In this document: in pieces, positions 5,859-62,073 of the stretch
Numbering within the stretch: position 1 is the first letter of the stretch
Layout of the letters: every line of letters begins with the position of its first letter
Translations under genes and position numbers: made by a program
Assembly: GCF_013978595.1 (NCBI RefSeq)
Contig: NZ_JACDTZ010000001.1
Coordinates: 1,302,001 to 1,366,000, forward strand
Reading direction: 5' to 3'
DNA from: Corynebacterium haematomassiliense
GTDB lineage: Bacteria > Actinomycetota > Actinomycetes > Mycobacteriales > Mycobacteriaceae
DNA length: 64,000 nucleotides
The notes under the pieces: generated by a model
What the model was told of the DNA's origin: nothing
Database searches by the model: none
Seen by the model: only the letters and a program-made list of their open reading frames with translations

Positions 5859-6749
5859 ATGCGTAATCGTTTTCAATACAGTGTTGGTGTGGTGGCTGCG
5901 GTGGTGGCCGTAGGGGCGTCGATAAGCAGTTGCTCCACCGAGACCGCGGATAACGCGGAGATTGTCGCCACCACCGGCGTGTGGGCGGACGTGGCCTCAG
6001 CAGTCACGGGCAGCGACGTGGACGCGATCATCACCGGTGACGCGGTGGACCCCCACCACTTCGAGCCGTCGGCGAAGGACCTCGCGCGCATCAAGGGCGC
6101 AAACACCGTCGTGGCCAACGGGGGCGCGTACGACGCCGCCCTCTACACCGCCGCTGAGCAGGACCGCATCATCTACGCGATCCCGCTTCTCGACGAGCAC
6201 GACCACGAGCATGCCCACGACCACGAGCACATGCCCGACTCCCTGGACGAGCTCGAGCACGCCTGGTTCGCGCCGGAGAAAATCCGCAAGGTCGCGGAGG
6301 ACGTCGCGGAGCGCACAGGCGGAGACGCGTCAGACGTCAAGCAGCGGATCGATGACATCCAATCCAAGCTCAACGCGGTACCGCACGTGCACATCGGCAT
6401 GACGGAGACGATCGCGGCCGGCCTGGTGTGGGGCACCGAGCTGCACGACATCACGCCCGAGGAGTACGTCAAGGCCAGCCTGAACCACCAGGAGCCGTCC
6501 GCATCTGCGGTGGCGGCGTTCCTGGAGCAGATCGAGCGCGGCGAGCTGGACATGCTGTTCGTGAACCCCCAGAGCACCAACAGTGCGACCCAGCGGTTGG
6601 CGGATGCGGCGAAGGCGCATAATGTTCCCGTTGTTGAAATCCGCGAGACACCGCCGTCCGGCCAGCGTTTCCTCGACTACTTCGAGGAGATCGTCGACCA
6701 GATTGCGGACATCGCTGCCCACGCTGAGCCGACCGGCCACCATCACTAG
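5859..6749 (+). CDS. Zinc/manganese-type ABC transporter substrate-binding lipoprotein
   Basis: 296 aa from the ATG at 5859. An in-frame TTG at 5823 falls inside the promoter and was not used. The signal peptide carries a lipobox (SISSC), so the mature protein is membrane-anchored. It is a cluster A-I (ZnuA/TroA) binding protein: early DVDAIITGDAVDPHHFEPSAKDL supplies a metal His, and a His/Asp/Glu-rich loop (EHDHEHAHDHEH) plus a C-terminal HHH suggest zinc handling. It heads a three-gene operon with the ATPase and permease. A Zur-like box in the promoter supports zinc over manganese. In C. glutamicum the similar importer cg2911-cg2913 is Zur-controlled. Confidence 0.9.
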   Translation: MRNRFQYSVGVVAAVVAVGASISSCSTETADNAEIVATTGVWADVASAVTGSDVDAIITGDAVDPHHFEPSAKDLARIKGANTVVANGGAYDAALYTAAEQDRIIYAIPLLDEHDHEHAHDHEHMPDSLDELEHAWFAPEKIRKVAEDVAERTGGDASDVKQRIDDIQSKLNAVPHVHIGMTETIAAGLVWGTELHDITPEEYVKASLNHQEPSASAVAAFLEQIERGELDMLFVNPQSTNSATQRLADAAKAHNVPVVEIRETPPSGQRFLDYFEEIVDQIADIAAHAEPTGHHH

Positions 6750-6760
6750 GAATTGCCAAT

Positions 6761-7432
6761 TTGATCGCTGAGCTTCGCGGCGCCGCCGTCGAACCCCTGT
6801 GGCGCGACCTCACCCTCACCGTCGAGCCCGGTGAATTCATCGCGGTGCTCGGCCCAAACGGCGTAGGCAAATCCACACTGCTGGGCACGCTGATGGGCAC
6901 GCGCAAGCTCACCTCTGGGCAAGCAAAAGTCCACGGGCAGATCGGCTTCATCCCGCAGCAGCACATGTTTCCGAAGGACCTTCCGGTGCGCGGGCGCGAC
7001 CTGGTGGCGTTGGCGATGGGAAGGCGGGCGAGACCGGAGGACGTCGATAGGCAATTGGCTTTCGTGGGGGCGCAAACCTTCTCCGAGCGCCGCGTGGGGG
7101 TACTCTCCGGAGGCCAGCAGCAGCTGATCCGCCAGGCGCAGGCGTTCGCGCAGAACCCAGAGCTTTTGCTTTGCGACGAGCCCCTGCTCTCCCTCGACCC
7201 CGCCCGCGCACGCGACACCGTGCAGCGCCTCGCGGAACACCCGGCGGCCGTGGTGTGCGTGACCCACTCCATCAACCCTGTGCTGGGCGTGGTGGACCGG
7301 GTGCTGTACCTGGGCCCAGAGGGGCACGTGGTGGGAAGCGTAGGGGAAGTGATGCGCTCCGAGGTGCTCAGCGAGCTCTACGGCACCCGCGTGGACGTTG
7401 TCGAAGTAGACGGACGGATGGTGGTCCTGTGA
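6761..7432 (+). CDS. Zinc ABC transporter ATP-binding protein
   Basis: 223 aa, started from TTG at 6761, which lies 11 bases after the upstream stop. It energises metal import with the neighbouring permease. Walker A is GPNGVGKST (near residue 32), the Q-loop is FIPQQHM, the signature is LSGGQQQLIRQA and Walker B is LLLCDEPLLSLD. It is shorter than many ABC ATPases but complete, and typical of ZnuC-like proteins. Its TGA overlaps the permease GTG (7429-7432), indicating translational coupling. Confidence 0.92.
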   Translation: MIAELRGAAVEPLWRDLTLTVEPGEFIAVLGPNGVGKSTLLGTLMGTRKLTSGQAKVHGQIGFIPQQHMFPKDLPVRGRDLVALAMGRRARPEDVDRQLAFVGAQTFSERRVGVLSGGQQQLIRQAQAFAQNPELLLCDEPLLSLDPARARDTVQRLAEHPAAVVCVTHSINPVLGVVDRVLYLGPEGHVVGSVGEVMRSEVLSELYGTRVDVVEVDGRMVVL

Positions 7433-8247
7433 GTGCGTTTTTAGCAGACACTTCGTACCTGCTCAGCCAAGACTTCGTGCAGACGACGCTTGTGGCGTGC
7501 GCGCTTCTGGGAGTGCTGTCCGGGGTGATGGCACCGCTGATCGTGCTGCGCCAGATGTCATTTTCGGTGCACGCGACCTCGGAGCTCGCGCTCATGGGCG
7601 CCTCCGCGGCGCTGCTGTTCGGGCTCAACGTCGGTTTCGGCGCCGTAGCGGGCGCGGTGGTCGCTGCCCTGGTGCTGGCGGCGCTGGGACTGAAGGGCCA
7701 GCAGGATTCCGCGGTAGGTGTGGCCATGAGCTTCGGCATGGCTCTGTCTGTGCTGTTCATCCACCTGTATCCGGGGAATTCGAACCGGGCGCTGTCGCTG
7801 CTAACGGGCCAGATTGTCGGCGTGTCGGCGCAGAACGTGGCGTTGTTGGCTGGTACCACCGTGCTGGTCGCTGGGGCCGTGCTGGTGCTGTGGCGGCCGC
7901 TGCTGTTCGCCTCCGCGGACCCCGTGATGGCCGCCGCGTGCGGGGTGCCCGTGCGCACCATGGCGCTGGTGTTCGCGGTGCTCGTGGGCATCGCGTCGGC
8001 GCAGTCCGTGCAGATCGTCGGCGCGCTGCTGGTGATGTCGCTGCTGATCACCCCCGGCGCGTCCGCCGCCCAGGTGACGGCGAACCCGAAGCTTGCGGTG
8101 GTGCTCTCCGTAGTGTTCGCGGAGGTCGCGGCCGTGGGCGGCATGGTGCTCTCGCTCGCCCCGGGCGTGCCGGTGAGCGTGTTCGTGGCCTTTATCTCGT
8201 TCGGGATCTACCTGGTGTGCCGGGTGGTCGGCAGGGTGCGGGGCTAA
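7429..8247 (+). CDS. Zinc ABC transporter permease
   Basis: 272 aa with about eight hydrophobic segments, of the ABC-3 (ZnuB/MntB) family. The reading frame is open far upstream, but the GTG at 7429 is preferred: it overlaps the ATPase stop as GTGA and gives an N-terminus (MSAFLADTSYLLSQDFVQTT) matching the family. Family segments include GVLSGVMAPLIVLRQMSF...ATSELALMGA and IVGALLVMSLLITPGASA. It forms the membrane channel for the metal delivered by the upstream lipoprotein. The stop abuts the convergent DUF2334 gene stop with no gap. Confidence 0.92.
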   Translation: MSAFLADTSYLLSQDFVQTTLVACALLGVLSGVMAPLIVLRQMSFSVHATSELALMGASAALLFGLNVGFGAVAGAVVAALVLAALGLKGQQDSAVGVAMSFGMALSVLFIHLYPGNSNRALSLLTGQIVGVSAQNVALLAGTTVLVAGAVLVLWRPLLFASADPVMAAACGVPVRTMALVFAVLVGIASAQSVQIVGALLVMSLLITPGASAAQVTANPKLAVVLSVVFAEVAAVGGMVLSLAPGVPVSVFVAFISFGIYLVCRVVGRVRG

Positions 8248-9086: not shown

Positions 9087-10562
9087 ATGAGCGCAGTGCT
9101 CGACCAAGCGGTCAACCAAATCGTCGCCGGGCTAAGGTCGCTTGCCGACGTCATGCGGGAACCGGACTCCCTCCACCTCGCCTCCACCCACGTGGCCATG
9201 GAGCGCCTCCACGCCTGCCTGCCGTTGCTGTCCAACGCGGACGTCGCGTTCGCCTTCCTCTGCGACCGGGACGGCGCCGGCGCCCTCGTCGGCGCGAACC
9301 ACGCCGTGGAGTATCTGACACGGAGCTTGGGCTTGTCCCGTCGAGAAGCATTCGCGCTCCTGGAGCAGGGCAAGAAGCTCTACGGCGAACCCGAGGTGCC
9401 TGAGCCGGAGCCGAGCGAAAACAAAGAAGACCGCGAACGCAAGGAGCAGGAGGCGGAAGCGCGCCGCAAGAAGGCGCGCGAGGCGCAGGAGCGGGCGCGA
9501 CGAGCTGCCGAGAAGGCCAACGCGGAGAAGAAGCGCATCATCACCGACGCACTGAAAGACCTCAACGAGCACGCCAACCCCGGCTACCAGGAGATCCTGG
9601 CCGAAGCGATGGAGGCGGCCGAGTCCCTCACCGCCGAAGAACTCCGGAAGTTCGTCCGCGACCAGGTCAAGCGCGCCAACAAGCGCGGACGCGACTACGA
9701 CGGCGAGAAAGACCCCCTCGCCGCGTGGAAGAAGCGCGGCATCTGGCTCGGGGAACCGGACGCGGACGGCGGCTCCCCTTTCAGTGGCTACCTCGACGCC
9801 GCGTCACGGGCGAAGCTGGAGGCCTGCCTCGCCGCCGGCGACCACATGGGGTCCAACATGGAGGGCGAGGACGCGGCGAAACGGGACAGCCGACGGAAGC
9901 ACCAGCGCCGCCTGGACCAGCTCTTGAACGTGCTGGACCGCTACGGCGACGTTGCCACGAAGTCCCGGGGCGGCGTGGGCACGGTGGTGATCACGCTGAC
10001 CCTCGACGACCTTTTGGAGGCGGACGCCTTCACCGAGTTCCCCACCAACACCTCGGTGTCGCTGACCCCGCTCGACATTGTGCGTTTGGGGCTTGCCGGG
10101 GACAGCTTCATCCTCCAACTCGACTCCGCTACCGGCGTCCCGCTTTCCCTCGGACGCACCCGCCTAGCCTCCGTGGAACAGAGGCTCGTGCTGCTGGCCA
10201 TGCAGGGCGTGTGCGCGTGGAACGGCTGCACCAAGCCGGGTGTCGAGCTCGAGGCCCACCACTTGGATTCCTACCTCAGTGGCGGACTCACCAGCATCGA
10301 AAACCTGGTGCTGCTGTGCCGCGAGCACCACATGTGCAACAACGACAACAAAGACGGTGCCGGAAACAAAGGCCATTTCGGCCGGGACCCCGACACCGGC
10401 GACGTGCACTACCACCCCGCCAACGGGGACCCACCCAGGCACACAACCACCTACCAGTACCGCAATTCACCTGGTCAGAGGCTTGCCAAAAAGGCGAGGT
10501 CCCGGCACGGCGGCAACCACAACCGCCCGCCGGACCCTGCCCTATTCGACCCGGACGGTTAA
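9087..10562 (+). CDS. DUF222/HNH endonuclease-domain protein (13E12-repeat type)
   Basis: 491 aa from ATG 9087, placed by AAAGGAGG at 9071-9078. The GTG at 9078 falls inside this Shine-Dalgarno and was rejected. The DUF222 region (about 1-330) is interrupted by a strongly charged Lys/Glu/Arg segment (about 110-165, probably coiled coil). The C-terminal HNH nuclease has the Cys pair in CAWNGCTKPG, then EAHHLDSYLSGG, NLVLLCREHH and a following Asn-rich loop. Proteins of this type are multi-copy in Actinobacteria and are suspected to be mobile or DNA-damage-associated; the function is unproven. Its stop codon overlaps the convergent oligopeptidase stop by four bases. Confidence 0.88.
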   Translation: MSAVLDQAVNQIVAGLRSLADVMREPDSLHLASTHVAMERLHACLPLLSNADVAFAFLCDRDGAGALVGANHAVEYLTRSLGLSRREAFALLEQGKKLYGEPEVPEPEPSENKEDRERKEQEAEARRKKAREAQERARRAAEKANAEKKRIITDALKDLNEHANPGYQEILAEAMEAAESLTAEELRKFVRDQVKRANKRGRDYDGEKDPLAAWKKRGIWLGEPDADGGSPFSGYLDAASRAKLEACLAAGDHMGSNMEGEDAAKRDSRRKHQRRLDQLLNVLDRYGDVATKSRGGVGTVVITLTLDDLLEADAFTEFPTNTSVSLTPLDIVRLGLAGDSFILQLDSATGVPLSLGRTRLASVEQRLVLLAMQGVCAWNGCTKPGVELEAHHLDSYLSGGLTSIENLVLLCREHHMCNNDNKDGAGNKGHFGRDPDTGDVHYHPANGDPPRHTTTYQYRNSPGQRLAKKARSRHGGNHNRPPDPALFDPDG

Positions 10563-12640
10563 ACCGCCTCGGCCTTCACCAGCGTCCACGCGTACTCGAA
10601 CGCGGTCTGCTTCCACTTGGCGTAGCGGCCGGACACGCCGCCGTGCCCTGCGGACATCTCCGTCTTCAGCAGGATCTCGCCTGCGGTGCCCACCTCGCGC
10701 AGCTTGGCCACCCACTTCGCGGGCTCGACGTAGAGCACGCGGGTGTCGTTCAAGCTCGTCACCGCGAGAATGTCCGGGTAGTCCTGCGCGGTGATGTTCT
10801 CGTACGGGGCGTAGGTCGCCATGTAGTCGTACACCTCGGGGTCGTGGTACGGGTCGCCCCACTCTTCCCACTCCCCCACTGTCAGCGGCAGCTCGGGTTT
10901 GAGGATGGAGGTCAGCGGGTCCACGAACGGCACGATCGCGAGGATGCCGGCGAACTTCTCCGGGGCCATGTTTGCCACCGCACCCATGAGCAGGCCGCCG
11001 GCGGAGCCGCCCTCGGCCACCAGCTGCTTAGGCGTGGTCAGCCCCAGCTCCACGATGCGGTCGGCGCACGCGATGAAGTCCGTGAAGGTGTTGGTTTTGT
11101 GCAGCATCTTGCCGTTGTCGTACCACGCGCGGCCCATTTCGCCGCCGCCGCGCACGTGGGCGCACACCCACACCATGCCGCGGTCGAGCAAACTCAACCG
11201 CGACACCGAGAACCCGGGGTCCGTGGATGCCTCGTACGAGCCGTAGCCGTACAGCAGCGCGGGCGCGGGACCCTCGACGCCCTTGTGGCGCACAACCGAA
11301 ATCGGCACCTGTTCGCCGTCGGGGGCGGTTGCCCACTCGCGGAACGCCTCGTACTCGTCCGGGTTGTAGCCGCCCTCGACCTCTTTTTCCTTCAGCAGGG
11401 TCAGCTCGCCGGTCGCCACCGTGTAGTCCAGCACCTGCGAGGGCTGGGTGTAGGAGGAGTACCCGATGCGCACCACCGGGGCGTCCCACTCCGGGTTGCC
11501 GCCGAGGCCGACGGTGTAGAGCTCCTCGGAGAATTCCAGCTCCTTGAACTCGCCGAAACCGCTGTCGAGCGACGCCACGGCCAGCCGCGGGATCCCGCCG
11601 CGCCTGTAGGCCATGAGCATGAAGTCGCGGTAGGTGTCGATCGCCTCGACGCGCACGGTTTCGGAGTGCTCCACCAGCACGGGCAGTTCCCGCAGGGGAG
11701 GCACAGCGCCGACGGGTGTTGTCGCGACGCAAAAGTTCGCTCCGTGGGCGTTGTGCGTGACCACCCACTGCTCTTCGCCGTCGACGACGCAGAAGTCCGG
11801 GTGGTACTCGATGCCGGCCTCGCGCTCCCACAGCACCTGGAACTCGCCGGTGGGATCCGCCATGTCGAGCACGCGGTACTCGGAGGTCAGCGAGGACGAC
11901 GCGATGATCATGAGGAACCGCTCGGCACGGTCCGCGCCCACGCCGACACCGAACTTCTCGTCCGTCTCCTCGTACACCAGCACGTCTTCGGCAGCGGGCG
12001 TGCCCAGCTTGTGGCGCCAGATTTGGTGGGGCCGCCAGGCGTCGTCGCAGCGGACGTAGAACAGGTAGTTCTCGCCCGCCCAGGTCGCGCCGTAGAAGAT
12101 GCCTTCGAGCTCGTCGTCGAGCAGTTCGCCGGTATCCAAATTCTTGATCCGCAGGGTGAAGCGCTCGTTGCCCTCGGTGTCGAAGGAGTACGCGAGCAGG
12201 CGGCCCGAGGTGGACACGGACGATGCCCCGAGCGAGAAGAACTCGTGCCCGTCGGCGAGCTCGTTGACGTCGAGAAGCACCTGCTCGCCCGGCATGTCCT
12301 CGGTGACTTCGGGCGGGGTCCACGGGTCTTCCGCGGTGGGGATGCGGCAGGAGATGCCGTAGTCCTTGCCTTCGATGGTGCGGCCGTAGTACCACCAGTT
12401 GCCCTGGCGCTGCGGCACGGACATGTCGGTCTCTTTGATGCGGGACTTAATCTCGCCGTAGACGTCGTCCACCAGCCCGGACCAGGCGGACGTCCGCTCA
12501 GAGGTGTACCCGTTCTCCGCCTCCAGGTGCGCGAGGACTTCGGGGTTGTCCTTGTCGCGCAGCCACTCGTAGTTGTCCACGAACTCGCGGCCGTGGAACG
12601 TGCGGACAATCGGGCGTTTGTCAGCTACGGGTGGGATCAT
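10559..12640 (-). CDS. ptrB: Oligopeptidase B / prolyl oligopeptidase family (S9A)
   Basis: 693 aa serine peptidase cutting short peptides after basic residues, cytosolic. An N-terminal beta-propeller (about 60-400) is followed by an alpha/beta-hydrolase domain with the nucleophile in [17 protein letters not shown], the acidic residue in [15 protein letters not shown] and the His in SAGHGGVSG. The ATG at 12640 is chosen over the upstream GTG because it overlaps the purC stop as ATGA and has GGGGGA six bases before it. Coupling to purC is also found in other corynebacteria. Confidence 0.93.
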
Positions 12641-13552: not shown

Positions 13553-14080
13553 GTGAAAAACCGCGCTACCGTTGTCCTCCTCCCGCTCATTCTCGCAGCG
13601 TGCACCGCACCTTCGGAGTTCAGCGGGCAGATGCCGGAGTTTTATCCTTCGCGCGACGGCGCCACGTTCCGCTTTGGGCAGACCGCCAAGATCGTCACCG
13701 AGGACGTGCGCTACCACGTGCCGGTGCAGTGGGAGGTCACGGTGGATGAGCCCACCACCACCCGCGCGCCCCGCAGCGCCGAGCACGCCCGCTCCCTCGT
13801 GTGCTTCCCCGTCAGCTTCACCCCGGCTGCCATCGGCGAGTTCCCCATGGATGTCACAGTCGCCTTGCCGGAGCTTTTGCCTATCGACGGTCCCCTGGCC
13901 GCCAACGTGGCCGACCCGAATTACTGCGGCGACTGGGACATCACCGGCTACACCGGCGAGCTGGAAGCCAACGAAACCTACACCGGCTTTGTTGCTTCCT
14001 GGGCGGGCAGTGCCGACCCGGGAATTGTCGGCCGCGGCGTCGAGCTGAAAAGCCGCGACACCACCCTCACTTGGGAGTAG
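13553..14080 (+). CDS. Small secreted lipoprotein of unknown function
   Basis: 175 aa from GTG 13553. The sequence [20 protein letters not shown] gives a lipoprotein signal peptide with lipobox LAAC, so it should be lipid-anchored outside the cytoplasmic membrane. The mature part has two well-separated Cys (LVCFPVSF and NYCGDWDI) and looks beta-rich. No family is recognised. It lies between divergent purC and convergent purB (stops adjacent at 14080/14081). Upstream in-frame ATG use would lose the lipoprotein signal geometry. Confidence 0.78.
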
Positions 14081-15517
14081 CTACAGGATGTCGCCCGGGG
14101 TGTAGGCGGCGGCCTGCGGATGCGCGTCGACAAGCTGTTGCACCCTCGCCAGCACCCGGTCCACCTGAGACTCGGCCGCGCCGATGAAAGCGTGGCGATC
14201 CGAAAGCGCCTCCTCCAACTGCGACTGATCCAGCGGCAGGCGCTCGTCGGTGGCCAAACGCTCCACCAGGTTCTGCTCCGCGCCGCGCTCGCGCATGTCC
14301 AGCGCCATGGCGACGGCGTTTTCCTTGATCACCTCGTGCGCCGTCTCGCGGCCCACGCCGGCGCGCACGGACGCCATGAGGATGCGGGTGGTGGCCAAAA
14401 ACGGCAGGTAGCGGTCCAGTTCGCGGTTGATCATGGCCGGGAAGGCGCCGAACTCGTCGAGCACGGTAAGCATGGTCTCCAGCTGGCCGTCGATGGCGAA
14501 GAACGCGTCCGGCAGCGCCACGCGGCGCACCACGGAGCAGAACACGTCGCCCTCGTTCCACTGCTGGCCGGACAAATCCGCCACCATGGTGAGGTAGCCG
14601 CGCAGGATCACCTGGAAGCCGCCGACGCGCTCGCAGGAGCGCGCGTTCATCTTGTGTGGCATGGCCGACGAGCCGACCTGGCCTTCCTTGAAGCCCTCGG
14701 TGACGGTCTCGTTGCCGGCCATGAGCCTAATCGTGGTCGCCAGCGAGGACGGGCCCGCGCCCAGCTGCACCAGCGAGGACACGACGTCGAAGTCGAGGGA
14801 GCGCGGGTAGACCTGCCCCACCGAATCAAAGACGCGGTCAAAGCCGAGGCCGTCCGCGATACCCTGCTCGAGGCGGGAAAGCTTCTCCTCGTCGCCGCCC
14901 ATCAGGTCGAGCATGTCCTGCGCGGTGCCCATCGGGCCCTTGATGCCGCGCAGCGGGTACCGTTCCAGCAGCTCCTCGATGCGCTCCACCGCGACCAGGA
15001 TCTCGTCGGCGGCGGAGGCGAAGCGCTTGCCCAGGGTGGTCGCCTGCGCCGCCACGTTGGGGGAGCGGCCCGCCATGACCAGGGACTTGTACTCGCCGGC
15101 GCGGTTGCCCACGGCCTTCAGCAGCGCGATCGCCTTGTCGCGGGTGAGCTCGAGGGCGCGGCGCACCTGCAGCTGCTCCACGTTCTCGGTGAGGTCGCGC
15201 GAGGTCATGCCCTTGTGGATTTCCTCGTGGCCCGCCAGCGCGTTGAACTCCTCAATGCGCGCCTTCACGTCGTGGCGGGTGATCTTCTCCCGGGAGGCGA
15301 TGGAATCCAGGTCCACCTGGTCGATGACCTTCTCGTAGTCCTCGATCGCGCCCGGCTCCACGGCAACGCCGAGCTCCTGCTGCGCCTTCAGCACCGCGAT
15401 CCAGAGCTGGCGCTCCAGGATGATCTTGTGCTCCGGGGCCCACAGGGTGGCCATCTCCGGGGAGGCGTAACGGTTACTCAGAACATTCGCGTTATTCGGC
15501 TTCACGGCATTCATCAT
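14081..15517 (-). CDS. purB: Adenylosuccinate lyase
   Basis: 478 aa, cytosolic. It removes fumarate from SAICAR and from adenylosuccinate. The superfamily signature [18 protein letters not shown] (about residues 288-305) and [19 protein letters not shown] (substrate loop) are present, with full family length. The first ATG (15517) overlaps the purD TGA as ATGA; a second ATG follows immediately and either could be used. No good Shine-Dalgarno is visible, consistent with re-initiation after purD. Confidence 0.97.
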
Positions 15518-16761
15518 AGGGAGATCGCCCCCTCGATCGCGGGGCGGGCGATGTCCTTGCGGTAGAACGAACCGGGAAGCTCAATCCCAGCAATAACCTG
15601 ATACGCCTCCGCAACGGCGTCCTCAAGCGTCGCGCCTTGGCCGACGACGCCGAGAACGCGACCTCCTGCCGCAACATACTCGCCGTCCTCCAACGCAGTG
15701 CCGGCGTGCAGCACCTTTGTCGGATCGTCTAGCGCCTCGCCGGTAATCACACCTCCAGTCTTGGCGGCCTGCGGGTAGCCCTCGGCGGCCAGCACCACCA
15801 TGGCGGCGAACCCGTCGCGCCACTGCAATTCCCCGACCTCGTCCAGGTGGCCCTCGGCGACGGCGAGCAGCACGTCCGCCAGCGGGGTCTCCAAAAGCGA
15901 GAGCACCGCCTGGGTCTCCGGGTCGCCGAAGCGGGCGTTGAACTCCACCACGGCCGGGCCGTCCGGCCCCCAAGCGGCGCCGACGTACAAAAGGCCCTGG
16001 TACGGGGTCCCGCGGCGCACCATCTCTTCCGCCACCGGGCGCGCAATCACATCCACGATGGTCGCGACCCCGTCCTCCGGCAGCCACGGCAGCGGCGCGT
16101 AGGCGCCCATGCCGCCGGTGTTGGGGCCCTCGTCGTTGTCGTAGGCGCGCTTGTGGTCCTGCGCCGGCAGCAGCGGCACCACGGTTTCGCCGTCCACCAG
16201 GCAGAACAGCGAAACCTCGGGGCCTTCCAGGAAAGACTCGAACAGTACCGGGTTGCCAGCTTCAAGCACCGCCTCCGCGTGCGCCTTCGCCTCGGCGCGG
16301 TCCTCGGTGACCACCACGCCCTTGCCGCCTGCCAGGCCGTCGTCTTTAACCACGTAGCGCGGGCCGTACTCGTCCAGCGCGGATGCAATATCAACAAGCT
16401 TCTCGACGCGGGTCGCCGACGCGGTGGGCACCCCCGCCGCCGCCATCACGTCCTTGGCAAAGGCCTTGGACCCCTCGAGCTGCGCGGCGGCCTTCGTCGG
16501 GCCGAACACCGGCACGCCGGCTTCGATGAGCGCGTCCGCCGCGCCGGCCACCAGGGGCACCTCCGGGCCGATCACAACAAGTTCCGCGTTGGTCTCGCGA
16601 GCCAAATCCACGATGGCCTGGGGAGAGGCGACGTCGACGGGGCGCACCGTCGCTAAGCGGGTCATGCCCGCGTTGCCCGGTGCGACCGTGAGGTCGTGGC
16701 CTTGCATTGCGTTGAGTAGGGCGTGTTCGCGGCCGCCCGAGCCGATGACAAGGATGCGCAT
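15514..16761 (-). CDS. purD: Phosphoribosylamine-glycine ligase (GAR synthetase)
   Basis: 415 aa from ATG 16761 ([21 protein letters not shown]). It is an ATP-grasp enzyme forming GAR, the second step of purine synthesis. Visible marks are [17 protein letters not shown], the ATP-grasp [16 protein letters not shown] segment and the C-terminal [13 protein letters not shown]. Upstream in-frame residues are not family-like and were dropped. It forms an operon with purB through a four-base overlap. The divergent HIT gene begins 32 bases away. Confidence 0.96.
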
Positions 16762-16792
16762 GGGCCCCAATTTACCGGTAGCGTCGAGAAGC

Positions 16793-22708: not shown

Positions 22709-23088
22709 AGCGCGCTCTAACAATCCTGCCGCTATTCGCCCTGGCCGCCTGCGCGCCCGCCCCCACGTGGCAGGTTGTCTCGCTGCGCACCAGCGAAGAC
22801 CAGCCCGCCACTGAGACCTCCGTTGCGCGCCTGCGTATCGACGGCCAAAGGTTCACCGGCACCACCGGCTGCTCTGACGTGTCCGGCTCGTTCGAGGGCG
22901 AAGACACCATCACGCTGACCGACCTCACGCTCAGCGACCCGGGCGATTGCTCCGGCTGGGCCCGCCACACCCACGACCAGCTCGCTCATCTCCTCACCGA
23001 AAGCAAATCCTTCCAGGTCTCCCGCCCCGCAGACTTCGAGATGATCCTCGTAGCAGAATCCGGCGAAACGATAAGGCTGATGCGATGA
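22705..23088 (+). CDS. META/HslJ-like lipoprotein between otsA and otsB
   Basis: 127 aa from GTG 22705, overlapping the otsA stop. MKRALTILPLFALAACAPAP is a lipoprotein signal with lipobox LAAC. The mature domain contains RIDGQRFTGTTGCSDVSGSFE followed by ITLTDLTLSDPGDCSG, resembling the GTTGCN-SGSY core of META/HslJ domains. The function is unknown. It overlaps otsB by four bases (23085-23088), so it is embedded in the trehalose operon, as in C. glutamicum. Confidence 0.82.
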   Translation: MKRALTILPLFALAACAPAPTWQVVSLRTSEDQPATETSVARLRIDGQRFTGTTGCSDVSGSFEGEDTITLTDLTLSDPGDCSGWARHTHDQLAHLLTESKSFQVSRPADFEMILVAESGETIRLMR

Positions 23089-37414: not shown

Positions 37415-37436
37415 GACCACTATTGTTGCACGCATT

Positions 37437-39873: not shown

Positions 39874-42612
<2,739 letters not shown>

Positions 42613-42679: not shown

Positions 42680-42734
42680 CTGGTTTGTTCGCGCATACCC
42701 GCATGGTCGTCGATAAGCGCAGGTGAGAGGCGAT

Positions 42735-52795: not shown

Positions 52796-53250
52796 AGCTT
52801 CCGCACCCCCTGGTCCTCGAGGTTTTCGAGCAGCTCGCTTATCGACGCTCCGTTGAGCACCGCACCCGGATCCACCTCGAACCAGGGCTCGAGCACGAAC
52901 TGGCGCAGGTGCGCCCGCGGGTGCGGCACGGTCAGCTCCGGGTTGTCAGAGGTGTAGCCCTCGACCCAGATGATGTCCACGTCCAACGTGCGCGGGCCCC
53001 ACCGCTCCTCGCGGACCCGGTGCGCGCGCTGCTCCAGCTCCTGGCAGCGGGCTAGTAGTTGCTGCGGGGTGTCGTCCACATCCACCAAGAGGGACTGGTT
53101 GAGGAAGTCCGGCTGATTGGTGTTTCCCCATGGCGCGGTGGCGTAAATGGAGCTCGCGGCGAGAGTTTCGCCGGCGAACTCGTCGGCGACCGTCTGCAGG
53201 TGGGCGCGCGCGTCACCCATGTTGGACCCGGAAGACAGCACGGCACGCAT
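52792..53250 (-). CDS. folK: 6-Hydroxymethyl-7,8-dihydropterin pyrophosphokinase
   Basis: 152 aa, normal length. It transfers pyrophosphate from ATP to the pterin alcohol before DHPS. Signatures: LSSGSNMGDARAHL, TAPWGNTNQPDFLNQSL and the RWGPRTLDVDIIWVEG motif with the metal-binding DVD. It starts three bases after folB and overlaps the DUF3180 gene by four bases. Confidence 0.95.
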   Translation of the reverse strand: MRAVLSSGSNMGDARAHLQTVADEFAGETLAASSIYATAPWGNTNQPDFLNQSLLVDVDDTPQQLLARCQELEQRAHRVREERWGPRTLDVDIIWVEGYTSDNPELTVPHPRAHLRQFVLEPWFEVDPGAVLNGASISELLENLEDQGVRKL

Positions 53251-53625: not shown

Positions 53626-54508
53626 TTCTCCACCTTTCTGCCACGTCTACTGCGTCGCGCGAGACCGCCACCTCGTGCACCCGCACGCACCAGGCACCAG
53701 CCTGGGCGGCAAGGGCGGTGACTGCCGCGGTGGCCGGGTCGGCGTCGATAGGCGAATGCTCGAGGCCACGCCGCTGGCGGATTTCCATGAGGAAGCGCTT
53801 GCGCGAGGCGCCGACGAGGATGGGAAACCCGCTCGCGATGAACTCCGGCAGCGAGTTGAGCAGCGCCCAGTTGTCCGCGGCCGTCTTGGCAAAGCCCAGG
53901 CCCGGGTCCAGGATGATCTGGCTTTCGTCCACACCCGCAGCGGTCGCCTTATCGACGAGCTCCGCCAGCACCTCGTGCACATCCCCCACCACGTCGCCGC
54001 CGTGGTCAGCCGCGCCGGAGGCGTTGACAAAGGCGTCCGCGCGCCAATGCATCAGGCACACCGGCAGCTGCGTCTCAGCCATCACTCGGTACATGTCGGC
54101 GTCCGCCAGGCCGCCGGAGACGTCGTTGATCAGGTCCACGCCCTCCTCGGCCGCTGCCAGGGCGGTGGCGGCGCGCTTGGTGTCCACGGAGGTGCGGATC
54201 CCGTCGGCGTGGAGCGCGCGAATCACGGGGCGGATACGCTTTGCCTCCACCTCCGCGGGGACACGGGTGGCGCCGGGGCGGATACGCTTTGCCTCCACCT
54301 CCGCGGGGACACGGGTGGCGCCGGGGCGGGTCGATTCCGCACCGACGTCGATGATGTCCGCGCCCAGGCGCACTAGCTCGTGGGCGTGCGCGATGGCGTC
54401 GTCCGTTGCGAGCCACTTGCCGCCGTCTGAAAACGAATCCTCCGTGACATTGACAATGCCCATCACACTCGTGCGCCCAGGCACGGTCAGATCGGCAACG
54501 GTAGTCAT
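53618..54508 (-). CDS. folP: Dihydropteroate synthase with an internal 16-residue duplication
   Basis: 296 aa, about 16 longer than usual. It condenses pABA with the pterin pyrophosphate and is the sulfonamide target. Signature 1 is SVMGIVNVTEDSFSDGG; the loop DVGAESTRPGA follows. Directly after it the segment GATRVPAEVEAKRIRP is present twice in tandem, from a perfect 48-bp repeat, before the normal VIRALHADGIRTSVDTKRA. SVDTKRA, DLINDVSGG and ILDPGLGFAKT are intact, so the enzyme is probably functional with altered geometry near the pABA site. It sits in the folE-folP-folB-folK operon. Confidence 0.94.
   Translation of the reverse strand: MTTVADLTVPGRTSVMGIVNVTEDSFSDGGKWLATDDAIAHAHELVRLGADIIDVGAESTRPGATRVPAEVEAKRIRPGATRVPAEVEAKRIRPVIRALHADGIRTSVDTKRAATALAAAEEGVDLINDVSGGLADADMYRVMAETQLPVCLMHWRADAFVNASGAADHGGDVVGDVHEVLAELVDKATAAGVDESQIILDPGLGFAKTAADNWALLNSLPEFIASGFPILVGASRKRFLMEIRQRRGLEHSPIDADPATAAVTALAAQAGAWCVRVHEVAVSRDAVDVAERWRNG
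54227..54322 (-). repeat. Perfect 48-bp tandem duplication inside folP
   Basis: Copies 54227-54274 and 54275-54322 are identical and in frame, adding GATRVPAEVEAKRIRP once more. Identity with no silent differences indicates a recent event, though an assembly or PCR artefact must be excluded. Confidence 0.95.
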
Positions 54509-54511: not shown

Positions 54512-55087
54512 CTATCCCCTAATCAGGCTCAGCACTTCCGCGCGCGAAGCCGCATTGTTCTGGAAGCCGCCGCGCACCGCCGAGGTGGTGGTGGTCGCGC
54601 CCGGCTTGCGGATCCCGCGCATGGCCATGCACAGGTGCTCGCACTCGATGACCACGATAACCGCAGAGGCATTGAGCTTGTCGACGATCGCGTCCGCAAT
54701 CTGCGCCGTCAACCGCTCCTGCACCTGCGGACGCTTCGCGTACATGTCCGCCACGCGCGCCAGCTTGGACAGGCCGGTGACCTTGCCCTCCGGGCCCGGG
54801 ATGTAGCCGATGTGCGCCTCGCCGTAGAACGGCACCAAGTGGTGCTCGCAGGTGGAGTAGATCGGGATGTCGCGCACCAGCACCAGCTCGCGATGGTTCT
54901 CGGAGAACGACTTCTCCAGGTGCACCTTCGGATCCTCGTGCAGGCCCGCAAAGACCTCCTCGTAGGCGCGCGCGACGCGGGCCGGGGTTTCCACCAGGCC
55001 CTCGCGGTCCGGGTCCTCCCCGACCGCGATGAGCAACTCGCGCACAGCAGCCTCTGCGCGCTCTCGGTCGAAGTTCGCGTTAGTCAT
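54512..55087 (-). CDS. folE: GTP cyclohydrolase I
   Basis: 191 aa from ATG 55087 ([19 protein letters not shown]). The frame is open upstream in ftsH but not family-like there. It makes dihydroneopterin triphosphate, the first folate step. Zinc ligands are in [21 protein letters not shown] and [22 protein letters not shown] [17 protein letters not shown] is also conserved. It overlaps the ftsH stop by eight bases, linking folate synthesis to ftsH transcription. Confidence 0.97.
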
Positions 55088-57392
55088 CGTCCCTCCTGTG
55101 CTTCGGCGCGCGCTCCTCGCGCGGCAACTGGGTGGTCTCCGCATCCGGGGTGGTCTCCGGTTCCGGGCTGCGGGCGGCGTGGTCCGGCCGCTCGTTTTCC
55201 GGCAGACGGAAGCCGATCTGTTCGGTCTTTTCCGTCGGGTAGTTGCGGGTGCCCGGGTGCTGCTCCTTCGGCGCTCCCTTGTACGTCCAGCCCTCAGGCG
55301 GTTTCGGGCCACCGTATTGCGGCGGATCGGACTTCGGCTGCTGCCATCGGGTGGAGCCCTTCCTCGGCGCCGGGTTTTGCTCCGCCTCGCGTTCCTTCCG
55401 GCGGCGCTCGCGGGTGGCCTTGGAAGCCTCCAGGATGGAGAAGCGCTTCGGCGGCTCTTCGCCGCGCTCCTTGGCAATCTCCACCGGGGTCTTCACCGGC
55501 TCGCGGTCCGACTGGCGCCCGAAGCGCGCGTCGTGCGCCGGCAGCGGCGGGCGGACCGGCTCGACGGTGTCGAAGATGGCCTCCAGATCGCCGCGGCGCA
55601 GCGTCTCCTTCTCCAGGAGCTTCGAAGCCAGTGTGTCCAGCTCGTCGCGGTAGCGCTCGAGGGTGCTGTAGGCGACCTTGTGCGCTTCGTCGAGAAGCAT
55701 CTGCATCTCCTCGTCGATCTTGGCCGCCACCGCCGGCGAGTACTCCAGGGAGCCGCCAGAGGCCCGGCCGGAGAAGGGATCGCCCTGCTCCTGGCCGTAC
55801 TTCACCGGACCGAGCGCGGAGGTCATGCCGTATTCGGTGACCATCGCACGGGCGATTTTCGTCGCCTGCTCGATGTCGTTGGACGCGCCCGTGGTCGGCG
55901 CGCCGAAGACCAGCTCCTCGGCGGAGCGCCCGCCCATGGCAAACACCATGCGGGCGAACAGCTCGTCGCGGGTGTACATGCCCTTGTCGTCCTCGTCGGC
56001 AGTCATGGCAAAGCCGCCGGTGCGGCCGCGGGCGAGGATAGTCACCTTGTACACGCGCTCGATGTCCTTCAGCGCCCAGGCGGCGAGCGTGTGGCCGCCT
56101 TCGTGGTAGGCGGTGACCTTCTTCTCGTGCTCGGAAATGACCTTGCTGGAGCGGCGCGGGCCGCCGATGACGCGGTCCGTCGCCTCCTCCAGGGCATCCG
56201 CGGTGATCACGTTGCCGCCGATGCGGGCGGTCAGCAGCGCGGCCTCGTTGAGCACGTTGGCCAGATCAGCGCCGGACATGCCGGCGGTGCGCTTGGCCAA
56301 AGCGTCGAGCGAGACGTCGTCTGCAAGCGGCTTGTTCTTGGCGTGCACCTTGAGGATCTGCGCGCGGCCTGCGATGTCCGGGTTGGTCACCGGGATCTGG
56401 CGGTCGAAGCGGCCGGGGCGCAGCAGTGCCGGGTCCAGGATGTCCGGGCGGTTCGTCGCCGCAATCAGGATCACGCCCTCGCGGCCGGAGAAGCCGTCCA
56501 TCTCCACCAGCAGCTGGTTGAGAGTCTGCTCGCGCTCGTCGTGGCCGCCGCCCATGCCGGAGCCGCGCTGGCGGCCCACCGCGTCGATCTCGTCGACGAA
56601 GATGATGCACGGGCTGTTCTCGCGGGCCTGCTTGAACAGGTCGCGCACACGGGAGGCGCCCACGCCGACGAACATCTCCACGAAGTCGGAGCCGGAGATG
56701 GTGTAGAACGGCACACCCGCCTCGCCGGCCACGGCGCGCGCGAGCAGCGTCTTACCGGTGCCGGGCGGGCCGTAGAGCAGCACGCCGCGCGGGATCTTCG
56801 CGCCGAGCTTTTCGTACACGGTCGGGTCGGTGAGGAAGTCCACCACCTCGTGCAGCTCGTCCACCGCCTCGTCGGCGCCGGCGACGTCCGCGAAGGTGTT
56901 GGTCGGGTTGTCCTTGGTCAGCTGCTTCGCCTTCGAGCCGCCGATGCCGAACGGCCCGCCACCGCCCGCCTGCATGCGGTACATGAAGTAGAAGATCAGG
57001 CCGAAGACCAGGATCATCGGCAGCATGAAGCCGAGCATGGACATCAGGAAGGATTCCTGCGTCACGTTCGTCTCGTACTTGTTCGCGCCGGATTCGCGCA
57101 CCGCGCCGAAGATCTCCGGGGTGGTGCGTGCCGGGTACTGCGCGGAGATCGCCTCGACACCCTCGCGCTCATCCACGGTGATCGGCTCGCGCAGGTCGAT
57201 GCGCACGCGCTGCTCACGGTCGTCGATCTGCACTTCTTCCGCGTTGTGGTTCTGCAGCTGTTCAAGCGCCACAGAGGTGTCCACACGCTGGTAGGCGCGG
57301 GAATCGTCCCCGATCAACGTGAGCAGATAGAGGACGATCAACGCGATGGCGCCAATGACGCCCCACCGCAAAACCTTTTTATTTTTGCTCAT
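55080..57392 (-). CDS. ftsH: ATP-dependent zinc metalloprotease FtsH
   Basis: 770 aa. Two TM helices (about 8-27 and 105-125) flank a periplasm-facing domain. The AAA domain has Walker [14 protein letters not shown], Walker B IIFVDEID and the [22 protein letters not shown]...[20 protein letters not shown]. The M41 zinc site is [11 protein letters not shown]. An unconserved, charged C-terminal tail of about 150 residues follows. It degrades membrane and regulatory proteins. It begins the ftsH-folEPBK run, 11 bases after hpt. Confidence 0.97.
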
Positions 57393-58334: not shown

Positions 58335-59222
58335 TTAATCCACAATGGTCAACTTTCCCTGCCGACGCACCACCGCGCGCCCGCCCGCGACAGCCACGGG
58401 CCCTTGCCCGTGCCAATCGACGACCAAGGCTTCCACCGCGTCGAGCTGGTCCCCTTGCACCGGCACGCCTTCCCCCAAGAGCCATGCTGCTAATCGACGC
58501 CTCCGGACCGGCTCCGCATCCGCCTTCAACTCCGCACAGCAGGTAGTCGGCGCGAGGTCGGTCAGCGACGCGATCAGGGCCTGGTCCGCCGCGATCCGGT
58601 CCGCGGTGGCCGCGAGCGCGGGGACGGCGTCGCCGCCGAGAAGCTCGCTGAGCAGGGGCAACACCTGGTTGCGCATCGCCACGCGGCGGAAGGCCGGGTC
58701 CGCGTTCATCGGGTCGTGCCACGGATCGAGGCCGAGCTCCCCGCAGGCGCCGACGGTGTCCGCGCGGCGGATGCCCAGAAACGGCCGGACGATGCGCCCA
58801 TTGCGCGGAGCCATGCCGGACGGGTTGCCGCGCAGCGCGCCAAGCAGGAGCGTTTCCGCCTGGTCGTCGGCGGTGTGGCCGACCCAGACATCACTCCCGT
58901 ACGCCAGCAGGGCCTCGTACCTGGCGCTGCGCGCGGCCGCCTCCAGGTTGCCCTCGCCCACCTCGACGCGGACGACTTCGGCTGCGAGGCCGAAAGCTTT
59001 GACTGTCTGTACCGCCCGTTCCGCCACCGCGTTGGAACCGTCCTGGAGGCCGTGGTCCACCACCACGCAGCGGACGTCCTTCTTCTCTGCCGCTGCCGCG
59101 GCGGCCAAGGCGAGCGAGTCGGGCCCGCCGGACAGGCCGATGATGGCGGGGGCGTCGAAGGGGCGGAGTGCTCGTCGGCAGGCAAGGAAGTGCGGCGAGC
59201 GGCGCGGCCAGAATGGGTCCAT
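58335..59222 (-). CDS. tilS: tRNA(Ile)-lysidine synthetase
   Basis: 295 aa. It makes lysidine at C34 of tRNA-Ile2 with ATP. The PP-loop SGGPDSLALAAAAA is near residue 31, and VDHGLQDGSNAVAERAV, GHTADDQAETLLLGALRG and LRPFLGIRR-like VRPFLGIRRADT are all conserved. The C-terminal domain is reduced, as in other actinobacteria. The ATG shares its A with the dacB TGA (TGATG), so translation is coupled to dacB. Confidence 0.94.
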   Translation of the reverse strand: MDPFWPRRSPHFLACRRALRPFDAPAIIGLSGGPDSLALAAAAAAEKKDVRCVVVDHGLQDGSNAVAERAVQTVKAFGLAAEVVRVEVGEGNLEAAARSARYEALLAYGSDVWVGHTADDQAETLLLGALRGNPSGMAPRNGRIVRPFLGIRRADTVGACGELGLDPWHDPMNADPAFRRVAMRNQVLPLLSELLGGDAVPALAATADRIAADQALIASLTDLAPTTCCAELKADAEPVRRRRLAAWLLGEGVPVQGDQLDAVEALVVDWHGQGPVAVAGGRAVVRRQGKLTIVD

Positions 59223-60475
59223 CAGAACTCGCGCAGTGCGGAGGTGAACTCGTCCATGGCGCGGCGCGCGGCGAGGACGTCGGCGTCGTTGCAGATCAGG
59301 GCGAACGTGTAGACGTTGCCGTTCACACTGGTCACGGTGCCGGCCAGCGACGCGGTGCCGTCGAGTGTGCCCGTTTTCGCGCGCACCCAGCCGCGGCCCG
59401 CGAGGTCGCTGTAGCGGTCCAGGAGCGTGCCCTCGCCGGCGGCCACGGGCAGCGCGGACAGCAGAGGACGCAGCGCGGGCTGGGCGGTGGCGTCGTACAG
59501 CAGCGCGTCCAAAAGCTTCGGCGCGATGCGGTTGTCCGCGGACAGCCCGGAGTTGTCGTGCAGGACGAGCCCGGCGGTGTTGAAGCCGCGCTCCTCCAGC
59601 ACGCTCTGGGTCGCGCCCGGCGCGTCCGTGGTGCCGCGCGCCAGCGCCACTTCGCGCCCGATGGCTTCGGCGTAGACGTTGTCGGAGTTTTTCATCATCA
59701 GCTCGAGCCGCTCCACCAGCGTCGGCGACTCCACCGCGGCGACAACCTCGCCGTCGCCCTGGCCTTCACCGACGTTCTGCGCGCCGACGCGCTCCGCCAG
59801 CGCCTGCGCCACCTCGAGCGCCGGGGTGTGGGAGCGGGGCACGTCGCCGGAGGTCTCGCCGTTTAACCGTCCGCCGGACAGCATCGCGGGCTGCAGGGGC
59901 GCGACGAACCCGCCGTCGATGTCCAACGGGTCCCAGCCCGGCATGAGCTCCGGCATGCCGTCCCAGGCGGAGGTGTCGATGAGCACCGTGCCGGCCTCCC
60001 CCACCTGCGCCGCGAGCTCATCCAGAGCTTCACTGTTCAGCCACACGTCGCCTGCCGCCTTGATCACTACTTCCCCCGGGTTCGCACCGCGCACCACCTC
60101 CGTGGTGATGCGGTCCTGTGCGCCCAGGCTCAGCAGCGCCGCCGACGCGGTGAGCACCTTCGTCACACTCGCCGGCTTCAGCGCCTCGTCGGAGGCGCGG
60201 TCGAACACCGCCTCGCCGGTGCCAGCCTGTGTGACGTGGCCGTGGAACACGCCCAGGTCAGGGTTGTCGGCGAGTGTTGCCAGGGTCGTTCGCAGCGAAG
60301 CGTCGTCGATAGGCGAAGGCTCCGCGGGCTCCAACACGGTCGGGGCCGACTGCAGCTGGTACGGCGGCGCGTGCGTGATCTCGGAGAGCTGCTCGTGCGC
60401 CGCGATGCCGAAGCCTGCGACACCGCCGACCGCAGCGAGCGCGACGGCGCCTGCGACCCAAGTCCATACCTTCAT
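59222..60475 (-). CDS. dacB: D-alanyl-D-alanine carboxypeptidase/endopeptidase (S13, DacB/PBP4)
   Basis: 417 aa from ATG 60475 ([23 protein letters not shown]). The N-terminal hydrophobic segment is a signal peptide or anchor. S13 motifs: SxxK in [15 protein letters not shown], SxN in [13 protein letters not shown] and KTG in [16 protein letters not shown]. It trims peptidoglycan stem peptides outside the membrane. The longer open frame upstream overlaps the divergent ppa promoter and was not used. Positioned between ppa (divergent) and tilS as in mycobacteria. Confidence 0.94.
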
Positions 60476-60536
60476 CGGCCAAAATGGTAGCCGAAGTATG
60501 ATGGCGTGCAGACATTCACCGAACAAAGGAGAAGTA

Positions 60537-61070: not shown

Positions 61071-61087
61071 TTTGCTTATCGACGGCT

Positions 61088-61126
61088 AAAGCCGGGCCCG
61101 CAATCATTCGCTGGCCCGGCTTTTTG
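61088..61126 (+). terminator. Rho-independent terminator after ppa
   Basis: AAAGCCGGGCC (61088-61098) pairs with GGCCCGGCTTT (61113-61123); a T-run follows. The stem is flanked by A on the left, so it may work in both directions and also stop the convergent protease gene at 61135. Confidence 0.92.
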
Positions 61127-61134
61127 TTGCGCTG

Positions 61135-62073
61135 CTAGAACCAGCTGCGCATGAACGCGAGACCGAGGCCGATCGCGGAGATCGCGGCCGCGGCCACCGG
61201 CAGGATGATCGCCAGCGGCGAGACGCGCTTCGGCTGTTCGGGGGTGGGCTCCGGCGCGACCGTAGTCTCGATGACGGTCGTGCGACGCTCGGTGGACGTC
61301 TGGCTTGTCGACGGCTGCGTTTTCACCGTCGTACGGACCGGGGTCGGGGCAACCTCAACGACCGTGGAGTTGCGCTCGCCGACCCACTCGTAAACGTTGC
61401 CGTTGTTCGCCGGGGTGGGCGTCGGCGTCGGGGTAGCGGAGCTCGTCGATAGGCGAGCTGCTCGCAGGTCGTTCGCCTGGATGAGCACCTGGGCATCCAG
61501 CGGCTGCGGGGTTTTGGCCACCTTGCCGCGGTTGGTGCCGTCCTTCATCAGCGCGCCGTCGCAGGAGTGCGCCAGGCCCATGGCGTGGCCGAGCTCGTGC
61601 GCGATGGTCATGACCAGGCTCTCGTAGTAGCCGCTGCGCAGAATGTCCGGGTTGAGCAAAAGCTCCATGTTGTTCACGTTGCCCTGCACGCGGCCGACGA
61701 CGTAGCCGCCCAGGTTGGCCTCCCGCACGGTGACCACCTTGTAGCCGGGCTGGTCCACGTACTCGAAGCGCATCAGGCCGCCGGTGGCGCTGACCCACTG
61801 GTCCGTGGCCTGGGTGATGTACGGCTTGTACTTCGCCGGCGCGAAGATGCGCAGGACGCCGTTGTCGATGGCGTTCTCGTTGCCGCTGAGTAGGTAGTTG
61901 CCGATGTTCGGGATCGGCTGGCCCATGTTCGCCGCTGCGGTGGCGGCGCGGCACTCCCGACCAATCGGGTCGACGGCGGCCTGGGCCGGGGTGACGATCG
62001 TACCTGCCGCGACGGCGGCGGCACAGCAGGATGCGAGCAGATGTCTATAATTCACCAACTCAGAGAACACCAT
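61135..62073 (-). CDS. Secreted, membrane-anchored metzincin-type zinc protease
   Basis: 312 aa. A signal peptide ends near PAQAA (residue 33). The catalytic domain holds HELGHAMGLAH (His159, Glu160, His163, His169), the H-E-x2-H-x2-G-x2-H metzincin motif. No clear Met-turn is seen; LMKDG shortly after may serve as one. After residue 210 a Thr/Pro/Ser-rich stalk leads to a C-terminal TM helix (LAIILPVAAAAISAIGLGLAFM) and a short basic end. It should be displayed on the outer face of the membrane. The start is uncertain: GGAG sits too close to the ATG, and a GTG next to it would fit better. Substrate unknown. Confidence 0.87.
   Translation of the reverse strand: MVFSELVNYRHLLASCCAAAVAAGTIVTPAQAAVDPIGRECRAATAAANMGQPIPNIGNYLLSGNENAIDNGVLRIFAPAKYKPYITQATDQWVSATGGLMRFEYVDQPGYKVVTVREANLGGYVVGRVQGNVNNMELLLNPDILRSGYYESLVMTIAHELGHAMGLAHSCDGALMKDGTNRGKVAKTPQPLDAQVLIQANDLRAARLSTSSATPTPTPTPANNGNVYEWVGERNSTVVEVAPTPVRTTVKTQPSTSQTSTERRTTVIETTVAPEPTPEQPKRVSPLAIILPVAAAAISAIGLGLAFMRSWF

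Follow-up and report, generated by a model that had tools for sequence, protein, structure and literature searches.

Dialect words dispersed through Corynebacterium chromosomes and their possible role in DNA uptake

In the available part of its description, the DNA uptake sequence (DUS) of the Neisseriaceae is a short and dense word that is common within genes of the core genome and differs in dialect between related species (PMC3630211). For the uptake signal sequence (USS) of the Pasteurellaceae, the accessible portion of the source gives a 9-base core, two dialects, and a minor pilin as the predicted receptor (PMC12616744). The actinobacterium Micrococcus luteus transforms via a tad/Flp pilus together with ComEA and ComEC, and the sections of that report available to us mention no uptake sequence (PMC6370729). 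Here we describe an 11-base word, GCTTATCGACG, that recurs on both strands of a 64-kb stretch of the Corynebacterium haematomassiliense genome (contig NZ_JACDTZ010000001.1, positions 1,302,001 to 1,366,000; this whole stretch is hereafter the window, and the genome comprises 2.58 Mb in 4 contigs). The word is part of a genus-wide system of dialect words that is under selection at the DNA level and acts with a direction. By analogy with the systems above, it is probably a DNA uptake sequence (we put the probability at about 0.6), although we do not claim membership in the DUS kind.

Like the DUS, the word is dense, intragenic in core genes, and present in dialects; unlike the DUS, it has an unrelated sequence, belongs to another phylum, occurs alongside tad/Flp-type pilus genes with no ComP counterpart identified, forms few close pairs, and may differ in dialect between sister species. 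The USS shares with it the dialects and a minor pilin as the predicted receptor, but the sequences are unrelated, and here the flank preference is slight (T at -1, C at +12) and no AT-rich block follows downstream. The tad and ComEA/ComEC gene set of M. luteus has its match in C. haematomassiliense, where its role in transformation is putative. Two further kinds of word bear comparison. Known Chi sites, which are short and oriented with replication, are likewise over-represented on the chromosome and act directionally, but the present word is longer, switches dialect between sisters, and has a weak replication orientation. HIP1 of cyanobacteria and other highly iterated words are similarly dense, dispersed, and largely intragenic; HIP1 is palindromic, however, whereas the word described here has dialects and its sequence is not a palindrome.

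Abundance, shape, and dialects of the word

We defined three related spellings, dialect 1 (D1, GCTTATCGACG), dialect 2 (D2, GCTTGCCGATG), and dialect 3 (D3, GCTTGCCGACG). The window holds 11 exact copies of GCTTATCGACG and six of GCCTATCGACG on both strands, just as a preliminary description of this DNA had counted, and 38 sites with at most one mismatch, compared with a mean of 1.12 and a largest value of 4 in 100 dinucleotide shuffles. The order-2 Markov expectation for the exact 11-mer is 0.019, near the chance value of about 0.03 first quoted for it. Enrichment is larger than had been claimed: across the genome, sites differing by no more than one base numbered 623 forward and 660 reverse (1283 in total) vs. 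22 and 20 (42) for the reversed pattern, and exact copies 150 and 167 vs. none. Within 464 kb sampled from this genome, GCTTATCGACG was the top over-represented 11-mer (57 copies vs. 0.26 under an order-3 Markov model), so that the Markov comparison proposed in the preliminary description returned a count far above expectation. With one-base variants included, the density in the C. haematomassiliense chromosome is about one site per 2 kb on both strands.

Variation within the word is uneven. In the same 464 kb, the variant GCTTCTCGACG occurred 46 times (1.68 expected) and all one-base variants combined 165 times (11.2 expected); positions 3 (C or G), 5 (any base), and 6 are variable, and G1, C2, C7, G8, A9, C10, and G11 are nearly fixed. 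This positional pattern places the functional word close to GCTTNNCGACG, with AT preferred mid-word. Past the core there are merely weak single-base preferences and codon periodicity, and a dispersed repeat such as a repetitive extragenic palindromic element (REP) or a miniature inverted-repeat transposable element (MITE) was rejected. A resemblance to the DnaA box TTATCCACA had also been suggested at the outset and did not hold, as the dialects GCTTGCCGACG and GCTTGCCGATG share little with it.

The sites are spread evenly. Twenty 20-kb blocks of this genome contained 6 to 21 generic sites each (mean 13.3, variance 15.9) with no clustering. Strand balance, previously noted for the window, extends to the genome (623 vs. 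660 sites) and to the genus, where strand totals of the three spellings over 201 genomes were 14309/14355, 2245/2247, and 9225/9331. Replication polarity, judged from block GC skew and not from a mapped dif site, is weak: in the 32 of 48 D1 blocks with clear skew, the ratio of leading to lagging sites was 232:195 (z 1.8).

Among the 201 genus genomes, D1 ranged from 0 to 782 copies and D3 reached 603 copies per genome. The D2 spelling was rich in 11 genomes (133 to 478 copies), which held at most 45 D1 and 41 D3 copies, and did not exceed 34 copies in any other. When each genome was assigned to the most abundant of the three spellings with a threshold of 40 copies, 148 had a dialect (D1 in 91, D3 in 46, D2 in 11) and 53, which we call motif-poor, had none; many D3 genomes additionally carry 30-160 D1 copies. 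Samples of motif-poor and intermediate genomes (G numbers are our genome labels) yielded the alignable words GCTTGCCGATGCC in G053 and G006 and CTTGCCGACGCC in G004. Weak extra words in G048, G015, and G066 (loci L056-L060, L121-L125, and L131-L135), namely TTGACGACGTC, TTCTCGACGCC, and TATCCGACGCC, suggest more dialects. Samples of 100-140 kb from G014, G152, G162, G039, G147, G180, and G041 yielded no clear word. Outside the genus, there was no comparable enrichment in 140 genomes of the family (among 151 genomes counted), where the joint pattern stayed at or below about four times the control; examples are G240 (199 vs. 95 control) and G315 (168 vs. 45). The k-mer list of G122 is led by repeats of the clustered regularly interspaced short palindromic repeat (CRISPR) type and that of G004 by a long unidentified repeat (L028, L066-L075). 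The G122 repeat is much like a Corynebacterium CRISPR repeat given in the available part of a published report (PMC5217627); together with Spa-type pilins, genome size, and the number of species, it points to Corynebacterium as the genus of the 201 genomes.

The base that distinguishes dialects, Y in CTTNNCGAYG, is not due to base composition, because G004 (D3, 60.2% GC) and G006 (D2, 60.5% GC), both at about 60% GC, differ in their T share at this position (0.14 vs. 0.95). The corresponding share in other CGAYG was 0.60 in G004, and the background in G006 was 0.63. T was present at 29 of 29 sites in G144 (background 0.47) and at a share of 0.11 in C. haematomassiliense (background 0.37); the weakest cases, both small samples, were G138 (6 of 9) and G156 (D3, 4 of 10).

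In a seven-protein tree, the ten D1 genomes formed one clade and G004 and G006 were sisters, each with a support of 1.0. These sisters have 37 aligned positions with a site in at least one of them and 14 with a site in both. At 13 of the 14 common sites G004 has C and G006 has T, with T in both at the remaining one, while among the 137 remaining aligned CGAYG the same switch occurred at 16 (Fisher p 4e-10). When the comparison was restricted to positions with C in G004, the switch was found at 13 of 13 sites vs. 16 of 44 in the background (p 4e-5). Aligned sites private to each sister (10 and 13) show turnover. Such an in-step change of many individually near-neutral sites is what biased transmission via uptake would be expected to produce.

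To compare orthologous positions, we used the 20-kb syntenic region surrounding mutY in the window and its counterparts in 20 further genomes (21 in all). Generic sites numbered 10 to 23 in all dialect genomes except G094 (5), and there were 3 in each of two motif-poor genomes. The question of whether sites are conserved in orthologous genes, raised in the preliminary description, was answered for this block: 118 of 169 coding sites lie at a position common to at least two of the 21 genomes, whereas 60 permuted cores gave a mean of 10.8 sites (maximum 46), with 0.25 shared on average. A few shared positions look protein-driven, such as Clp column 1312, which reads CGATG in 13 genomes with all dialects represented and is included in the shared totals. 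G029 has two mutY-like genes (C1:2127749 and C1:2330736) with 68 and 64% identity to the mutY of the window.

Selection on DNA and directional spacing

The 57 exact copies in the 464-kb sample occupy several frames on both strands. Frame 2, in which the codons CTT ATC GAC stand between a preceding x and a following G and read L-I-D, is preferred, with 27 copies on the strand of the gene, where frame 1 holds one; on the opposite strand, frames 2 and 1 hold 10 and seven, respectively, and 12 copies are not wholly within a called gene. For GCY sites, 20 of 89 are not wholly within a called gene vs. 18% of bases, which is roughly proportional. Sites in different frames and in gaps between genes had been described for the window and occur in this larger sample as well.

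Codon choice follows the word and not the peptide. In the 464-kb sample, L-I-D with G before and after was encoded as CTT ATC GAC in 27 of 33 cases, compared with 1 of 32 without the outer letters, and CTT accounts for 8% of leucine codons. A larger set of D1 blocks gave CTT ATC GAC in 87 of 99 L-I-D in the G..G context, and CTT was used in context for 88/99 LID, 33/34 LFD, 35/50 LVD, and 27/69 LAD but out of context for 2/59, 1/23, 9/114, and 15/152, respectively. For LAD in context, the third codon changes with the dialect (CTT GCC GAC in 16/17 in D3 genomes, CTT GCC GAT in 31/33 in D2 genomes), and in motif-poor genomes LAD took CTT in 1/28. Small D2 and D3 samples were less clean for some tripeptides, with CTT in 5/16 and 3/11 LID out of context. 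Because the choice of CTT follows the presence of the outer bases that complete the word, selection acts at the DNA level and not on the protein. A codon-pair or protein-level constraint could point to the L-I-D frame, which holds 27 of the 57 exact copies; however, L-I-D in D1 genomes avoids CTT when the outer G..G is missing, and copies also occur in other frames, on both strands, and outside genes. We therefore rejected codon-pair use in a single frame, which the preliminary description had named as a possible refutation, and give it practically no credence.

Neighboring copies avoid facing the same way. Pairs of D1 sites within 1 kb were in the same direction in 11 cases vs. 52 in opposite directions in C. 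haematomassiliense, and in 26 vs. 62 in other D1 genomes; the preference was gone beyond about 1.5 kb. Two of three control words favored the same direction within 1 kb (85:58 and 461:340), and the third, the reversed core, gave 8:1 among nine neighbors. This avoidance of same-direction neighbors within about 1 kb indicates that the word acts with a direction. On a plain reading, each copy covers about 1 kb to one side, and another in the same orientation would add nothing there. Such spacing fits uptake that begins at the word and proceeds one way, and it is at odds with a simple site for nucleoid binding.

Probable DNA uptake and competing explanations

Uptake is favored because the dispersion, the strand balance, the tolerance inside genes, and above all the dialects are DUS-like. 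In the proposed mechanism, free DNA bearing the word would be bound at the cell surface by a receptor, which we predict is either a partner of ComEA or one of the minor pilins of the tad pilus, and the pilus with ComEA and ComEC would then import this DNA in one direction beginning at the word. Recombination would fix the imported DNA. If cells preferred word-bearing DNA of kin, it would be biased transmission, rather than a benefit at each site, that spreads new copies, and a shift of receptor taste in a lineage would let the whole set of sites drift to a new spelling. We lean, with slightly less assurance than for the word itself, toward most of the genus running a species-tagging uptake system with (G)CTTNNCGAYG dialects, one-way import via the tad pilus, and switches between sister species. 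The word would then be an identity tag by which members of a mycolate-bearing Gram-positive genus recognize and import DNA of their own kind. Uptake sequences, so far reported in two proteobacterial families, would have a third independent origin and their first outside the Proteobacteria, and self-tagging of DNA would have evolved repeatedly, given dialects in 148 of the 201 sampled genomes. Natural transformation would also be widespread in the genus, which would make the genetics of its harmless members easier, and the evolution of receptors could be tested directly in sisters whose dialects are switched.

Genes that could serve such a process are present. C. haematomassiliense has ComEA-ComEC and, on contig 3, a tad operon with a TadZ-like protein, TadA, two T2SSF proteins, a DUF4244 Flp-like pilin, a TadE-like protein, and an Rv3654c-family pseudopilin (the TadZ, Flp, and TadB/C labels are those we presume from this analysis). 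The Rv3654c-family pseudopilin (TIGR03816; TadE-like; L026:8437-8751, minus strand) has two invariant cysteines. In its structural model (mean predicted local distance difference test, pLDDT, of 91.8), a long helix leads into a short one and then a three-strand sheet, a pilin-like plan that makes the protein a candidate receptor, and no PDB entry matched this model with E under 0.001. All seven tad genes were matched in 19 full-length tad stretches, motif-poor genomes included, with tadC in G138 present as a fragment. In that locus (L039) tadC looks broken, yet 267 D2 copies remain, as if competence had been lost recently.

Several observations weigh against the uptake reading. The gene content allows for uptake without predicting which genomes carry the word. 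ComEC domains occur in 200 of the 201 genomes and a TadA-type ATPase in 198 (195 over the cut-off), including nearly all of the 53 motif-poor genomes; the com genes that the preliminary description had proposed to look for are thus present without distinguishing the two groups, and presence or absence of ComEC, TadA, and HHH_3 proteins did not separate motif-rich from motif-poor among the 201. The six motif-poor tad operons examined were all complete. Among motif-rich draft assemblies, G021 and G075 had sub-cut-off TadA matches alone and G113 and G119 had none. Nine genomes were examined for comEC. In seven of them (loci L261 and L264-L269), the gene falls into two separate frames (motif-rich G001 and G114), carries one stop (motif-rich G035, and G194) or three (G112), gave a partial match (G138), or was not found (G200), and it is open in G161 and G175; the defects may reflect recent loss, variation between strains, or faulty assembly. 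The tad and Com proteins compared between the sister pair (G004, G006) are 70-92% identical, with no stand-out and no dialect-linked receptor change. The PF12836 search was not a clean test for ComEA, as its best matches were proteins of 770-800 amino acids, which we guess to be Tex. Neighbors closer than 40 bp were few (10 vs. 18 expected, nine of them inverted), so the word does not form the terminator hairpins typical of DUS and USS as a rule. Adjacent sites in D2 blocks showed a weak avoidance of the same direction (67 same, 86 opposite; p 0.15), as did those in D3 blocks (45 same, 58 opposite; p 0.24). Literature searches gave no natural transformation of Corynebacterium, and no uptake sequence or competence report for it, among the matches listed; the D1 11-mer, the D2 and D3 13-mers, and their complements had no whole-word occurrence in the literature searched. 

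A divergent TadA (44-53% identity to that of C. haematomassiliense) was found in 31 of 44 genomes, a biased set chosen mostly as motif-poor with a weak ATPase match that left out motif-rich weak scorers such as G173. These 31 hold at most 17 copies of any dialect and may be one deep clade that perhaps never had or lost the word.

The preliminary description had offered uptake, genome organization, and repair as readings, of which uptake is now favored, organization is weakened by the weak polarity, even spread, and orientation-dependent spacing, and repair survives in the form of a Chi-like recombination signal. At such a signal an AdnAB/AddAB/RecBCD-type nuclease-helicase would change mode, leaving a chromosome rich in the word. 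The chromosome is indeed enriched (1283 vs. 42) and plasmids are near background: 13 plasmids (765 kb), chosen from 32 Corynebacterium records among 806 RepA matches and from hosts whose dialects are not established, carried 74 generic sites vs. 55 control, or 9.7 per 100 kb, whereas the seven dialect genomes with samples of at least 100 kb had densities of 31-86 per 100 kb. (One phage, its host dialect likewise not established, had 7 sites vs. 2 control; a comparison of an insertion sequence (IS) stretch against the plasmids found nothing.) A polar signal would also lead same-direction neighbors to avoid each other within 1 kb, so the direction of action that fits uptake fits a Chi-like signal as well, and the orientation-dependent spacing raised this alternative, lowered those of chromosome organization and mutation, and slightly lowered uptake. 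However, the word lacks a marked replication orientation (232:195), spans 11-13 bases with two inner positions loosely fixed, and changed by a single base at 13 of 14 common sites between the sisters, which is hard to achieve by weak selection at each site. We consider a Chi-like role unlikely.

Lower still is the standing of a chromosome-organizing or segregation signal, whether like the FtsK-orienting polar sequences (KOPS), a nucleoid site, or an SMC loading site, with a binder of lineage-specific taste. The even spread (13.3 generic sites per 20 kb) and the concentration of the word on the chromosome, with plasmids near background, would suit it. Yet KOPS need a marked polarity toward the terminus, which block GC skew did not reveal, and KOPS were rejected; moreover, no clustering was seen in the 20 blocks, spacing that depends on orientation is not accounted for by plain binding sites, and switching the dialect of a core chromosome function between sisters would be costly. 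The available part of a paper on C. glutamicum FtsK names no such word (PMC11898615). We regard an organizing role as improbable. Biased gene conversion or a context-dependent mutator might instead produce the word without any receptor. Turnover of private sites in the sisters is in keeping with this selfish or mutational effect, and biased transmission belongs to the uptake model as well; variation falls in the middle of the word and spares its outer letters, though, and orientation-dependent spacing is left unaccounted for. Known mutators are, moreover, far less specific than a target of 11 bases whose middle is loose and whose far end is conserved, and this explanation seems at least as improbable as an organizing role.

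Sites and neighboring features in the window

Gene boundaries used to place the sites are codon-usage calls made in this analysis. Of the gene names proposed earlier, two were checked: mutY, whose best match, TIGR01084, falls under its curated cut-off, and a Clp ATPase. On the minus strand, exact copies of GCTTATCGACG lie at 5917..5927, 24351..24361, 26372..26382, and 48639..48649 (within genes 5823-6749, 23762-24529, 25440-26765, and 47194-48705, respectively), in mutY (37380-38294) at 37754..37764, where 5 of 21 aligned genomes hold a site, and at 42708..42718, which is not in called genes and is upstream of the Clp ATPase gene (39874-42612). The plus-strand copies are at 38180..38190 in mutY (a site in 3 of 21 aligned genomes), at 50268..50278 and 52837..52847 within genes on the opposite strand (49999-50790 and 52792-53250), and at 32664..32674 and 61074..61084, neither in any called gene.

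The variant GCCTATCGACG occurs on the plus strand at 13879..13889 and 42883..42893 (the latter not in any called gene) and on the minus strand at 7042..7052, 53743..53753, 60304..60314, and 61444..61454. Copies of GCTTCTCGACG are at 6185..6195, 16398..16408, 20348..20358, and 38929..38939 (plus) and at 9339..9349, 12268..12278, 16782..16792, 29442..29452 (a site in 4 of 18 aligned genomes), 51348..51358, and 55688..55698 (minus). The form GCTTGTCGACG was found at 14125..14135 (minus), 25608..25618, 54676..54686, and 61303..61313 (plus), and GCTTTTCGACG at 24097..24107 (plus), 37204..37214, and 40689..40699 (minus). The position of 37204..37214 holds a site in 9 of 21 aligned genomes (each of these nine being of dialect 1) and that of 40689..40699, in the Clp ATPase gene, in 15 of 20, reading CGATG there in 3 of 3 dialect-2 and 1 of 2 dialect-3 genomes. 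Single one-base variants are GCTTAGCGACG (16648..16658, minus), GCGTATCGACG (22833..22843, plus), CCTTATCGACG (53947..53957, plus; a form without enrichment), and GCTAATCGACG (58489..58499, plus; enrichment barely present); the two-base variant GCTTTACGACG is at 28468..28478 (plus) and 46657..46667 (minus).

Besides the 11-mer, the window has another cluster of over-represented words (AAGGGCGACA, GGCAAGGACGG), which stems from one collagen-like repeat gene at about 4.1-5.4 kb and was set aside. At 1214-5764 (plus), a surface protein of 1516 amino acids combines a lamin-tail domain, an ExeM/NucH extracellular nuclease, a Rib domain, and collagen repeats, and its domains suggest an extracellular DNase on a collagen-like stalk. 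The protein encoded at 61135-62073 (minus) is apparently secreted and has weak M10/M12 metallopeptidase matches.

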